Under the pieces are notes generated by a model that was given only the letters and a program-made list of their open reading frames with translations, had not been told where the DNA came from and made no database searches. The translations under genes were made by a program, and so were the position numbers. A stretch of DNA of 44,581 nt from Candidatus Acidiferrales bacterium (GTDB lineage: Bacteria > Acidobacteriota > Terriglobia > Acidiferrales > UBA7541): positions 1-44,581 of the forward strand of contig JASHPG010000110.1 of the NCBI GenBank assembly GCA_030038275.1, in the 5' to 3' direction. Positions 1,034 to 11,291 of this stretch are shown one piece after another. Position 1 is the first letter of the stretch; the number at the start of each line of letters is the position of its first letter.

Positions 1034-2116
1034 TTAGAAGCTTTTTCCTCCGGTTTGGCTTGGTACCAGCTCCAGTTGGGTGCCAGCGGCCAAGCGATCT
1101 ACCGCGTGTTGTTCTTGCCCCACCGCAAGATGGGCGTAACGCATCGTCGTCTGGATCGACCGATGGCCCAGCAATTTCGAGACCGTCGCTAAATCCACCC
1201 CTCGCGCGATCAACCGACTCGCGAAGGTATGTCGCAGGTCGTGCCAGCGGAAATCGTCGATGCGCGCCTCCTCCACCGAGGCTTCAAACCACTTGCGCCA
1301 ATCGGGATGGTCGGCTCCGCGAGCGCCCGGACAGACGAACTCCGATCCGTTGGACAACTCCCAGAGGGTTCGAAGCGCTCCTCGCGCTATCGCATTGAGG
1401 CGCACGAATCGGCGCCCCGTCTTTCCCCGGACGGTGAGAACGCCGCTATCGAGGTCCACATTGGCCCATCGCAGCCCGAACTGTTCCCCGCGCCGAATCC
1501 CGGTATGAAGCGCTAGTTCGAATTCCGCTTCACATGCCGGTCCTCGCGTTCTCAGCGCCTTCCGCAAGCTGAGTTCTTCGTCGCCCGACAGAAAGCGAAT
1601 GCGGCCTTCCGCCTCGCGGAACTTGCGGACGCGGGCGACGGGATTGCGAGCGCATATTCCTTCGCGGATGCCGAAGGCAAAAATGCTCGACAAGAGCGCG
1701 CGGTATCGATTCGCCGTCGAGGCCGCAAGCTTCCGCTCCCGCAACGATCGCAAAAACGCTTCTATGCGCGGACCCGTGATCGCGCTAGCTTGCGATGCGC
1801 CAAAATGCCGGAGGATTTCCGGGAGGCGCTCTTCGTCTTTCCGCCACGTGCCGGGGCGTCGATAAAGCTTCTTATCGGCGAGCGCGGCATCTGCGAGATC
1901 GGAAAAGGACAATCCCTTGACGCGCGGGGGCGCGAATTTCCCTTCGCGTACTTCGGCGCGGCGCTGGATATAGGCCTGCTCGGCGACGGAGCGGCGCCCA
2001 ACCTTTTCCCGGTGGCGCTTGCCGTCGGCGTCGTAATAGTTGATCCACCACATCCCCGAATCCGCGGGACGCTCGAAAACGCCGCGCATCGGGCGCTGCT
2101 TCTGTTCGTTCCCCAT
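1034..2116 (-). CDS. int: Tyrosine integrase of the prophage
   Basis: A site-specific tyrosine recombinase expected to join attP to the tRNA-Met attB site. The N-terminus (about residues 8-60) looks like an arm-type DNA-binding domain with a WWINYYDADGKRHRE stretch. The C-terminal catalytic domain shows Arg I in HTGIRRGE, the box II signature HDLRHTF, and LLGHRSIQTTMRY with the nucleophilic tyrosine. The ATG at 2114-2116 is preceded by AAAAGGGGA; a GTG at 2156-2158, overlapping the upstream stop as GTGA, is an alternative that adds 14 residues. It lies immediately upstream of the tRNA and probably shares a transcript with it. Confidence 0.93.
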   Translation of the reverse strand: MGNEQKQRPMRGVFERPADSGMWWINYYDADGKRHREKVGRRSVAEQAYIQRRAEVREGKFAPPRVKGLSFSDLADAALADKKLYRRPGTWRKDEERLPEILRHFGASQASAITGPRIEAFLRSLRERKLAASTANRYRALLSSIFAFGIREGICARNPVARVRKFREAEGRIRFLSGDEELSLRKALRTRGPACEAEFELALHTGIRRGEQFGLRWANVDLDSGVLTVRGKTGRRFVRLNAIARGALRTLWELSNGSEFVCPGARGADHPDWRKWFEASVEEARIDDFRWHDLRHTFASRLIARGVDLATVSKLLGHRSIQTTMRYAHLAVGQEQHAVDRLAAGTQLELVPSQTGGKSF

Positions 2117-2154
2117 TCCCCTTTTGCCCCACGCAGGCCCGACTTTATAGCACG

Positions 2155-2574
2155 TCACGCCTGCGGCAAGTTCACTTTCAGCGCGGGACGCGCTTTGCGT
2201 TTCGGCGCGGAATGCAGCGTGGTTTTTGCGCCCATCGGAAACGCTCCCTGGAGGGCTGCAAATACAAGATCGGAGGCGCAGTCGTTGCGAATCGCTGGAT
2301 TAGCTTGCAGAAATTGCACGACAACGTCCACCATTTGACCCTCCGTAGCGCCTGGCGGAATATGGATAAGCACGCCGTTGAAGCTGTCAGCGATTGCAGC
2401 GATGTATCCGATACAATATGCGCCGTAGGTGCTTCCTGCCACCGCCTCATATCCGCATTGCTCATACAGCTCGTTGCCGCTCTCGAATGCCTGCTTTTGT
2501 TGGGCAGATGCGCGAGGCGCGACAAGCGCGAAAGACGCGGCGATCAGCGCCGCGATTGCGAGTTTCGATTTCAT
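2155..2574 (-). CDS. Exported Rap1a/Tai-like protein
   Basis: A 139-residue protein with a Sec signal peptide (MKSKLAIAALIAASF, cleavage near ASA) followed by a Rap1a/Tai-type domain: YGAYCIGYIAAIADS, then IPPGATEGQMVDVV and a conserved end VFAALQGAFP. Two or more cysteines could form disulfides in the periplasm. Rap1a/Tai proteins are known as immunity proteins against type VI secretion amidase effectors, but many homologues have no proven role. The start is fixed by GGAGG eight bases before the ATG at 2572-2574. It stands between a ribbon-helix-helix gene and the integrase, so it may be expressed in the lysogen. Protection of the host is inference. Confidence 0.7.
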   Translation of the reverse strand: MKSKLAIAALIAASFALVAPRASAQQKQAFESGNELYEQCGYEAVAGSTYGAYCIGYIAAIADSFNGVLIHIPPGATEGQMVDVVVQFLQANPAIRNDCASDLVFAALQGAFPMGAKTTLHSAPKRKARPALKVNLPQA

Positions 2575-9326: not shown

Positions 9327-10460
9327 TTGAGCGCCTACTACAACGAATGCGACGGGAAGAAGGCGGCGTGGCTGCGCGAGCTGATGCGCGAGGGGATCGT
9401 AGCGGATGGCGAAGTCGATGAACGATCGATCGAAGAAGTTAAAGCGAGCGACCTCGCCGGATTCTCGCAATGCCATTTCTTCGCGGGCATCGGCTGCTGG
9501 AGCTACGCGCTCAGGCTCGCCGGATGGCCCGACGACCGACCTGTTTGGACGGGAAGTTGCCCCTGTCCCAGCTTCAGTTGCGCGGGAAAAGGAAAAGGGT
9601 TTGAGGACCCTCGCCACCTCTGGCCGGCTTGGTTTGGACTCATCCGCGAGTGCCGACCTCCAGCGATCTTTGGAGAGCAGGTTAATGCAGCGATTGGATA
9701 CGGCTGGCTCGACATTGTTCAATCTGATATGGAAGGCGCGTCGTACGCCGTTGGGAAGGCGGTACTTGGAGCGTGCAGCGTCGGTGCGCCGCACATCCGC
9801 CAGCGTCTGTACTTCGCTGCCTACGCCGCGCAGCGTGGAAGCGGGTCACGCGATGGGGAATCCAGACAGGGCAATGGACGCACGGTCGCGGCTGGAGGAT
9901 TTGGTATTCGCCAGCCTTCCGACGCCGATGGCTGGTTCCCCGCGGACGGAGACGTACAACGAAGCGGGCAACAACGATTACTCGCGGAAGATTGTGGAAG
10001 TGGCGACGATTCCGACTCCCAATGCTACGGATGGATCGAAGGGCCCGAAAAAATTTGCGAGGGGCAATCCTTCATTTCCGGCGACGGCAAAGCTGTCTGC
10101 AATCGCAACGCCAGCCGCGCGAGATTTCAAGAGCAACCGAGCGAGCGAAGCGTTCCATGCCAAAAGATGGACCGAGACACGCGGGAAAGCCTTAACCGAA
10201 CAGGCGCAACTCGCGGATTCTGGGCCGACTGCGACTGGTGGTACGGACGCGACGGGAAGTATCGGCCAATTGAATCCGGAATTCAGCCGCTGGGTCATGG
10301 GACTCCCAATAGAGTTCTCAAATTGCGCGGATATGGCGATGCAATCGTTCCGCAGGTCGCGGCAGAGTTCATCGGCGCGACCGCTGAAACCTTCGAGACC
10401 GACAAGAACCGGCTGATGAAATTCCTGGCGCGCCAGCTCGGAGGCCGGAAGCCCGCGTAG
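9327..10460 (+). CDS. Phage C5-cytosine DNA methyltransferase
   Basis: 377 residues. Motifs of the Dcm class are in order: HFFAGIG (50-56, SAM binding), GSCPCPSFS (76-84, with catalytic Cys80), GEQV (116-119, the ENV position), GAPHIRQRLYF (QRL box), a variable target-recognition region, and GYGDAIVPQVAAEF (motif X). It would methylate cytosine in phage and host DNA, for instance against restriction. The usual Gln after the catalytic Cys is Pro here. The start is a TTG at 9327 directly after an in-frame stop; the family typically starts SAYYNE, as here. A second frame over the same DNA (9406-10416) is also open and recognisable. Confidence 0.85.
   Translation: MSAYYNECDGKKAAWLRELMREGIVADGEVDERSIEEVKASDLAGFSQCHFFAGIGCWSYALRLAGWPDDRPVWTGSCPCPSFSCAGKGKGFEDPRHLWPAWFGLIRECRPPAIFGEQVNAAIGYGWLDIVQSDMEGASYAVGKAVLGACSVGAPHIRQRLYFAAYAAQRGSGSRDGESRQGNGRTVAAGGFGIRQPSDADGWFPADGDVQRSGQQRLLAEDCGSGDDSDSQCYGWIEGPEKICEGQSFISGDGKAVCNRNASRARFQEQPSERSVPCQKMDRDTRESLNRTGATRGFWADCDWWYGRDGKYRPIESGIQPLGHGTPNRVLKLRGYGDAIVPQVAAEFIGATAETFETDKNRLMKFLARQLGGRKPA
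9406..10416 (+). CDS. Overlapping frame within the methyltransferase gene (PTTDLFG-type protein)
   Basis: A 336-residue frame, +1 to the methyltransferase, from an ATG with GAGGGG ten bases upstream. It contains GSPDGPTTDLFGRE, SSASADLQRSLESRL, LDTAGSTLFNLIWKARRTP, several PTP boxes, NEAGNNDYSRKI and LNPEFSRWVMGLP. I recall these from phage hypothetical proteins found with the same methyltransferase type, so both frames may be conserved. No domain of known function; Ser/Thr/Pro-rich. It could instead be a widely mis-annotated shadow of the methyltransferase; the evidence here does not settle this. Confidence 0.45.
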   Translation: MAKSMNDRSKKLKRATSPDSRNAISSRASAAGATRSGSPDGPTTDLFGREVAPVPASVAREKEKGLRTLATSGRLGLDSSASADLQRSLESRLMQRLDTAGSTLFNLIWKARRTPLGRRYLERAASVRRTSASVCTSLPTPRSVEAGHAMGNPDRAMDARSRLEDLVFASLPTPMAGSPRTETYNEAGNNDYSRKIVEVATIPTPNATDGSKGPKKFARGNPSFPATAKLSAIATPAARDFKSNRASEAFHAKRWTETRGKALTEQAQLADSGPTATGGTDATGSIGQLNPEFSRWVMGLPIEFSNCADMAMQSFRRSRQSSSARPLKPSRPTRTG

Positions 10461-10730: not shown

Positions 10731-11291
10731 GTGCAAGCCCTCCTCCACGACGAAATGCGCCGGTTGCTTGCCGAAGCCAAGCGGCATTCGGAGCGCGACT
10801 GGCTGATGATCCTGGTGTGCTACACCCACGGCTTGCGAGCGAGCGAAGTGACGCAGTTGCGCGAGGATGCGGTGGCCGACGGAGCGCTGACGGTGAAGCG
10901 CCTGAAGGGATCGTATAAGACCACCCAGCCGCTCCTACCGAATCCCGATCCGCTCTTCGACGGGCGCGACGCGCTGATTGATTTCGCGCGCAAATCAAAG
11001 CGCGGCGCGCGGCTCTTCCCCCTGAGCCGCTCCGCCTTCCGCCACCGCTTGCGCAAGTATTGCGCGGCCGCGAATATCCCGGCGCGCAAGGCCCACCCCC
11101 ACGCGCTCAAGCACTCGATCGCCATCCATACCATTGCAAATGCAGGAATTGAGTACGTGCGGCAGTGGCTGGGGCATAAGTCGATGTCCTCGACCGGACA
11201 GTATCTACGGGTGACCGACGAGGAGGCGGCCGAGAAGATCGCCGAGGCGCTCGGCGCGCGCCGACCCCGGCAGCGGCGTTTGATTGATTGA
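10731..11291 (+). CDS. Small tyrosine recombinase (FimB-sized), HxxK variant
   Basis: 186 residues, only the catalytic domain. Arg I is in YTHGLRASEV, a Lys in RLKGSYKTT, box II reads HPHALKH with Lys where most recombinases have Arg, then WLGHKSMSSTGQY with the tyrosine. Size and layout resemble FimB/FimE-type recombinases that invert or resolve DNA. The GTG start at 10731 has no obvious ribosome binding site. It is separate from the integrase and is in the rightward early-to-middle region with its own promoter, so it may serve multimer resolution or DNA inversion; its target is unknown. Confidence 0.8.
   Translation: MQALLHDEMRRLLAEAKRHSERDWLMILVCYTHGLRASEVTQLREDAVADGALTVKRLKGSYKTTQPLLPNPDPLFDGRDALIDFARKSKRGARLFPLSRSAFRHRLRKYCAAANIPARKAHPHALKHSIAIHTIANAGIEYVRQWLGHKSMSSTGQYLRVTDEEAAEKIAEALGARRPRQRRLID

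Follow-up and report, generated by a model that had tools for sequence, protein, structure and literature searches.

The M.EcoHK31I methyltransferase (MTase), which targets YGGCCR, has a small subunit whose gene lies within that of the large subunit, in a different frame. In M.AquI, and in the split MTases of the actinophages Hammer (gp91/gp90), Lilbooboo (gp32/gp33) and Ryadel (gp8/gp7), whose genes overlap by 32–209 nt, motif X is found on the second protein. The second genes of the three split actinophage enzymes carry modules, motif IX and motif X. M.EcoHK31I and M.AquI are both two-polypeptide enzymes; in the former, the large subunit features motifs I–VIII and X, and hosts the predicted TRD, and the smaller one carries motif IX alone, according to PMC3404938. 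PMC3439449 presents M.EcoHK31I as a naturally split enzyme. Single-chain MTases are found in the actinophages GD43-6 (gp22), FreddyB (gp73), MelBins (gp5) and Baddon (gp4). In these, motif X lies in the same frame as a WMMxxP segment resembling motif IX, and LLPTP modules were identified in three of the four (GD43-6, FreddyB, MelBins). Multispecific MTases of Bacillus phages (SPR, phi3T and SP-beta type) are single-chain as well. These C5 enzymes carry tandem recognition units in a variable region, as reported in PMC8936443. The HNH endonuclease residing inside an insertion in a phage methylase, described in PMC11855218, represents a different hidden frame. A nested layout as that described below was not found in the consulted parts of the literature on overlapping, nested and split MTase genes, a search which left out preprints and most subscription papers, nor in the accessible portions of PMC3711429, PMC8227390, PMC5009743, PMC5582158, PMC12707154 and PMC4081073.

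In a Candidatus Acidiferrales bacterium, one stretch of prophage DNA seems to hold the two halves of a DNA-methylating enzyme in overlapping frames; the hidden half is the one expected to select the target sequence, and this layout recurs in many phages. The locus resides in a window of 44,581 nucleotides (the whole stretch of DNA analyzed; contig JASHPG010000110.1), which resembles a prophage. Ten ORFs were scanned, and exonuclease, terminase, portal, tail and head-closure genes were identified; a tRNA-Met (938–1012) is flanked by an integrase gene (1034–2158, minus strand). The MTase ORF (9327–10460) and the +1 ORF (9406–10416, 336 residues) reported in the initial annotation were both found, and are called here alpha and beta (or ORF2), respectively. 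All alpha and beta features map to the plus strand. Directly past the MTase, an ORF of 186 residues (10731–11291, plus strand) matches the phage integrase families phrog_1 and phrog_216, and is additional to the integrase at 1034–2158. A second copy of the gene pair resides in the same genome (C108, ~34.1–35.1 kb; L018, L019); it features a mid-gene frame change, and neither frame is whole. The ORF2 family was found in 3 of 199 genomes of the same phylum, including the genome of the window.

Alpha, the putative catalytic subunit of a C5-cytosine MTase, has a TTG start and measures 377 residues. It carries motifs I–VIII and X, without motif IX. Alpha matches phrog_363 (E 5e-70) and PF00145 (E 3e-13), the latter at profile positions 65–163 of 324 alone, corresponding to the motif IV–VIII part. 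Motif I (CHFFAGIGCWSYALRLAGW, 9471–9527) is denoted by family conservation and a weak (6 bits) alignment to the start of M.HhaI, motif IV (GSCPCPSFS, 9552–9578) and motif VIII (GAPHIRQRLYFAA, 9783–9821) by profile alignment to M.HhaI, motif X (RGYGDAIVPQVAAEF, 10326–10370) by family conservation and a weak alignment to motif X of split enzymes. Alignment was complemented by the standard numbering of motifs I, IV, VIII and X, and the catalytic Cys is presumably located within GSCPCPSFS. As to the features that define PF00145 members, the catalytic domain from the PC motif (IV) to motif VIII is found in alpha, as is motif X, the latter by family conservation; motif IX and the recognition region are not found in the same chain. 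In the AlphaFold model of alpha, residues 1–170 are mostly well folded, as are again residues ~340–370. The linker which runs through the recognition region (9822–10175) is predicted to be disordered, residues 172–280 having mostly pLDDT <50.

Beta, the proposed recognition and motif-IX subunit, starts with an ATG. The plausible ribosome binding site claimed in the initial annotation corresponds to a Shine-Dalgarno-like GAGGGG (9390–9395), 10 nt ahead of this ATG. A conserved core (ADLQRSLESRL...GSTLFNLIWKARRTPLGRR...RTS, 9652–9798) is followed by module 1 (LPTPRSVEAG..., 9817–9915), module 2 (LPTPMAGSPRTETYNEAGNNDYSRKIVEVAT, 9916–10008), module 3 (IPTPNATDG..., 10009–10101), module 4 plus a linker (IATPAARDFKS..., 10102–10266), and by a motif-IX-like segment (QLNPEFSRWVMGLPIEFSNCA, 10267–10329). 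The structure model of beta is poor overall (mean pLDDT 58). Confident regions are a helix and a beta-hairpin at residues 80–127, which make the core, and a helix at residues 291–297. Beta matches two PHROGs that bear the label 'DNA methyltransferase', phrog_1008 (E 1e-31) and phrog_31772, as well as phrog_27243 (unknown); the phage relatives proposed in the initial annotation were therefore correct. The window ORF2 found nothing in Pfam, NCBIfam or PADLOC at E <= 1. Pfam returned a single chance-level match for 1 of 15 ORF2s (CUL7_CUL9_N, E 0.099), NCBIfam none at E <= 0.001 for 101 ORF2s. No match to PDB entries was obtained with the ORF2 model by Foldseek at E <= 0.001, or with the ORF2 sequence profile at E <= 10.

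The order of elements in the DNA is motif VIII (9783–9821, alpha), modules (9817–10266, beta), motif IX (10267–10329, beta), motif X (10326–10370, alpha). At the sequence level, motifs are split as in M.EcoHK31I, I–VIII and X being on the large and IX on the small subunit. The small-subunit gene is likewise nested in another frame, as in M.EcoHK31I. The predicted TRD of M.EcoHK31I is placed in the large subunit (PMC3404938). Here, by contrast, the recognition region apparently belongs to the frame of the small subunit, where several recurring modules form an array; it is placed there by selection, predicted disorder and profile evidence. The present locus differs from M.EcoHK31I also by its prophage location and spread among phages, the two being likened by description. 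As in M.AquI and in the split actinophage MTases, the second polypeptide would hold motif IX together with some or all of the recognition region, but motif X is found here on the first protein, and beta is fully nested rather than partly overlapping. In single-chain actinophage MTases the motif order is the same, all in one frame. Tandem units are featured also by the multispecific Bacillus phage MTases; here the units lie in an overlapping frame, and would have a recognition role. The best reading of these likenesses is that the pair probably works as M.EcoHK31I does, the location of the recognition region in beta, the module array and the phage spread being the points of difference.

Relatives were gathered by MTase profile (best 80 of 595 confirmed), ORF2 query and ORF2 profile (best 80 of 594, and of 130). 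Loci featuring one MTase ORF across the whole profile were kept (244 of 259, 15 being dropped), and 206 remained after removal of near-duplicates. Openness was scored over the matched MTase stretch, leaving out its first 120 and its last 60 nucleotides. Of the 73 non-redundant viral loci selected by MTase (from the best 80 of 595), 71 have an open +1 frame, with 4 stops in total; in synonymous codon shuffles of the same genes 3.9 open frames and 218 stops are expected. The +2 frame is open in 0/73, the antisense frames in 3, 0 and 0 of 73. Among loci selected by ORF2, a choice biased towards openness, the +1 frame is open in 44/46 viral loci (1.9 expected) and in 70/73 loci from bacterial genomes (4.1 expected). 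The GC content of the three groups ranges from 0.52 to 0.71. A further MTase-selected sample, in which 405 of 422 loci passed the full-length MTase filter and 286 were left after deduplication, had the +1 frame open in 71/77, with 8 stops. At L081, L084, L086, L218 and L252 the MTase frame is broken by a stop and ORF2 is open; these are possibly inactive copies or sequencing errors.

Open frames of this type may be untranslated shadows, alike from one genome to the other merely because the MTase is conserved and GC-rich. Shadow frames are common, and annotation may be viewed in this light, as most of the 60 listed ORF2 matches bear one feature name under the match; the openness expected from shuffling is, moreover, above zero (3.9/73). 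The excess of open frames (71/73) speaks against a shadow, as does the +1 similarity, which lies far above that of synonymous shuffles, with z about 160 in the N block and 116 in the C block. The control is not perfectly neutral, since +1 similarity before ORF2 is also above shuffles, a point in favour of a shadow, but the excess is far weaker (z 10.8). dN/dS was measured by single-change counts on aligned gene pairs (286 sequences), which are not independent of each other. ORF2 ratios are NN/NS 0.315 (0.282–0.349) and SN/SS 0.42 in the N-terminal overlap, NN/NS 0.168 (0.129–0.217) and SN/SS 0.39 in the C-terminal overlap. Upstream of the ORF2 start, the corresponding +1 values are 2.09 (1.48–3.10) and 1.15. 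A less clean control, with a mock second gene in the +2 frame, gives ratios that disagree (NN/NS 3.37, SN/SS 0.69). ORF2 is under purifying selection. The initial annotation had named frequent stops in the second frame of homologues, and near-neutral dN/dS of that frame, as signs against a second gene. Both were sought, and neither was found (71/73 and 71/77 homologues open; 0.32/0.42 in the N block, 0.17/0.39 in the C block).

Constraint was also followed along the gene by comparing the number of identical codons with that expected among pairs sharing the amino acid. The identical-codon ratio is 1.07–1.16 up to 9551, hence there is little constraint on the first ~50 residues of ORF2. It rises to 1.47–1.99 at 9597–9821, is 1.7–2.0 over the conserved beta core and about 2 at 9687–9776. 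Values are lower and patchy mid-gene (0.93–1.49 at 9867–10136), and the maximum (2.65) is at 10272–10316, over the ORF2 segment LNPEFSRWVMGLP in the motif-IX-like region. The first +1 ATG falls at MTase residues 27–41 (window numbering) in 177/206 genes. Shine-Dalgarno-like matches of at least 5 nt precede the ORF2 ATG in 53/200 genes, versus 19.2 +/- 3.7 in shuffles. As judged by comparison of relatives, both frames are conserved and selected, and the start region of ORF2 features an excess of initiation signals. These data bear on programmed frameshifting, by which ribosomes would slip to the +1 frame once past motif VIII and return ahead of motif X, to produce a single full-length enzyme. 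The motifs follow each other as in a single-chain enzyme, the switches falling near 9820 and 10325, and single-chain relatives exist; yet the constraint on ORF2 starts well upstream of the first switch, at 9597–9821, the conserved ATG region and the Shine-Dalgarno excess suggest that ORF2 has its own start, and two slips would be required. We regard frameshifting as very improbable.

The middle of the gene follows a different pattern. Clustering of modules in the frame of ORF2 favours this frame by construction; the comparison was therefore repeated on DNA-selected matches. HSPs measuring 60 nt or more, with an identity of 92% or less, were picked regardless of frame in the middle (n=1841) and in the N block, HSPs not being independent. 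In middle HSPs, identity is 0.833 in the ORF2 frame, that of the MTase frame (0.551) does not surpass that of the third (0.570), and differences are concentrated at position 3 of ORF2 codons (0.370, versus 0.134 and 0.097). The N block is reversed, identity being 0.770 in the MTase frame versus 0.550 and 0.521 in the others. NS/SN is 1.46 (1.12–1.91) in the middle versus 0.24 in the N block. SN/SS for ORF2 alone is 0.86 in the middle, with an interval (0.41–2.72) too wide to be informative. The frames exchange roles mid-gene, and the DNA there evolves as coding in the frame of ORF2. Some constraint on the MTase frame persists in the middle, since its NN/SN is 0.42. When ORF2 codons are shuffled, ~573 stops are expected in the middle MTase frame over 285 loci, and 52 loci would be open by chance; the set was chosen with both frames open, 17/422 loci having been dropped earlier for having no full-length MTase ORF. 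Openness of the MTase frame across the middle looks selected.

ORF2 being the better conserved frame mid-gene, and the excess of Shine-Dalgarno-like matches, also speak against a shadow. This reading is contradicted by openness, +1 similarity, dN/dS and middle frame identities, and is hardly credible. Dual coding of the locus is practically certain. The initial annotation, which had raised long dual coding with an unstudied product, was right on the first point, both frames being conserved and selected; the product is probably the missing recognition region and motif IX part of the MTase, and not a new kind of protein; M.EcoHK31I is the one precedent for such a layout known from biochemistry.

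The latter assignment rests on profile comparisons. The ORF2 profile matches single-chain C5 MTases at 94.4% (E 9e-8), in the recognition-region and motif-IX segment, and the C-terminal halves of split enzymes at 94.9% (E 4e-8); these matches involve a short conserved segment, and comparison alignments of 3–4 sequences. The alpha profile matches the single-chain set at 98.9% over motifs IV–VIII, and split second halves at 1.5%, aligned at motif X alone. No match was found between ORF2 and alpha family profiles (0.3%). A profile of the ORF2 motif IX matches the +1 frame in 286/286 genes, and in 185/185 among the genes outside its building set; it matches neither the MTase frame (0/286) nor the third frame (0/286). 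In single-chain enzymes, the same profile matches the MTase frame just before motif X in L462 (E 1.5e-6), Baddon (L262, E 1e-4) and GD43-6 (L439, E 0.007), and weakly matches MelBins (L441, E 0.64). Split Ryadel and Lilbooboo are also matched (E 2e-4); no match is obtained for FreddyB (L440), for the split Hammer enzyme (L437) or for the canonical MTase encoded in the same genome (L434). With Pfam, the best stretches reported for single-chain and split phage MTases end before motif IX, and none of the 3 split second halves is matched.

By alignment, motifs I–VIII and X belong to alpha, and beta matches the part of single-chain and split relatives that holds the recognition region and motif IX. 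ORF2 might be a real but separate protein, such as an anti-restriction or regulatory factor, which shares DNA with the MTase without being a subunit of the enzyme. The lack of a fold match for ORF2 leaves room for this explanation. Against it stand the profile match of ORF2 to this part of single-chain and split MTases, and the presence of motif IX in ORF2, and not in the MTase frame, in 286/286 genes and, by pattern, in 58/77 loci of another clade; we consider it improbable. That ORF2 is the recognition and motif-IX subunit is highly likely on these comparisons.

ORF2s hold 0–9 units which open with a WPTP- or LPTP-like pattern and have a median length of 41 residues (278/286 parsed); four are found in the window ORF2. 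Similar units recur at differing ordinal positions across ORF2s, as exemplified by module 2 of the window: the cluster it falls in is represented in 31 ORF2s, where it occupies positions 1–5 and 7. Among mid-gene DNA matches, 68% are displaced by at least 30 nt, none with a change of phase. Displacement can denote true shuffling, or gain or loss of neighbouring units. The best reading is that ORF2 would be built from recurring modules of 30–60 residues. Whether modules are separate target recognisers is evenly balanced.

A second MTase clade was searched with enzymes of Paenibacillus, Mycobacterium and uncultured phage as query. The best 80 of 588 loci yielded 77 classified genes, 2 duplicates and 1 gene without motif IV being set aside. 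In this sample of the best 80, a IX-like motif was identified by pattern in the +1 frame in 58/77, in the MTase frame in 1/77, and was not found in 18/77. Between motifs IV and IX, 57 of the 58 have an open +1 frame (3.0 expected; GC 0.43–0.68). In the phage collection, tblastn matches to ORF2 were found in 139 records. Both frames are annotated in some, as K1ind2 ('Mte8-like protein') and PhiXhv-5. Variant arrangements were also observed. In Gordonia phage Baddon (1309–2379), the MTase is single-chain, but across much of the catalytic portion its +1 frame remains open and module-like, suggestive of a form intermediate between nested and single-chain. In Komagataeibacter phage phiKX2 (L264) ORF2 is intact, its C-terminal part is annotated, and the end of the MTase frame is divergent, without recognisable motif X. 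In L015 (1–1198), an ORF2-like frame lies beside a rearranged MTase frame bearing a second motif-VIII-like stretch, an arrangement which looks like a partial duplication or recombination.

The locus is, in all likelihood, one C5-cytosine MTase made as two proteins from nested frames, as in M.EcoHK31I. The order of parts is the one seen in ordinary single-chain enzymes, with the middle part shifted into the +1 frame. Translation of beta would start independently at the internal ATG, and alpha and beta would assemble into one enzyme. Alpha would span the recognition region as a disordered linker, the sequence of which would hardly matter as long as it is open, and beta would span the catalytic motifs with an N-terminal part of its own. 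The WxTP... modules repeated in beta may be target-recognising segments which are gained or lost, and shuffled from phage to phage. The likely use of the enzyme is to methylate the phage's or prophage's own DNA, as protection from host restriction.

There is an even chance that, more broadly, a large share of phage C5 MTases are dual-frame enzymes with the specificity subunit in the +1 frame, that selection on the DNA passes from one frame to the other mid-gene, the catalytic ends being in one and the recognition modules in the other, and that modules shuffle as phase-preserving cassettes, possibly conferring several specificities. Because cassettes would preserve phase, one enzyme may carry several specificities and switch them, the other frame being merely kept open. 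If this is true, many phage and prophage 'DNA methyltransferases' would be annotated without their specificity half, and predictions of specificity from the annotated frame alone would use a disordered linker. The locus would also be a long case of same-strand overlap, of wide occurrence, in which each frame has a functional reason and is under measurable selection. Single-chain, split and nested enzymes form a natural series, in which the origin of the overlap is testable.
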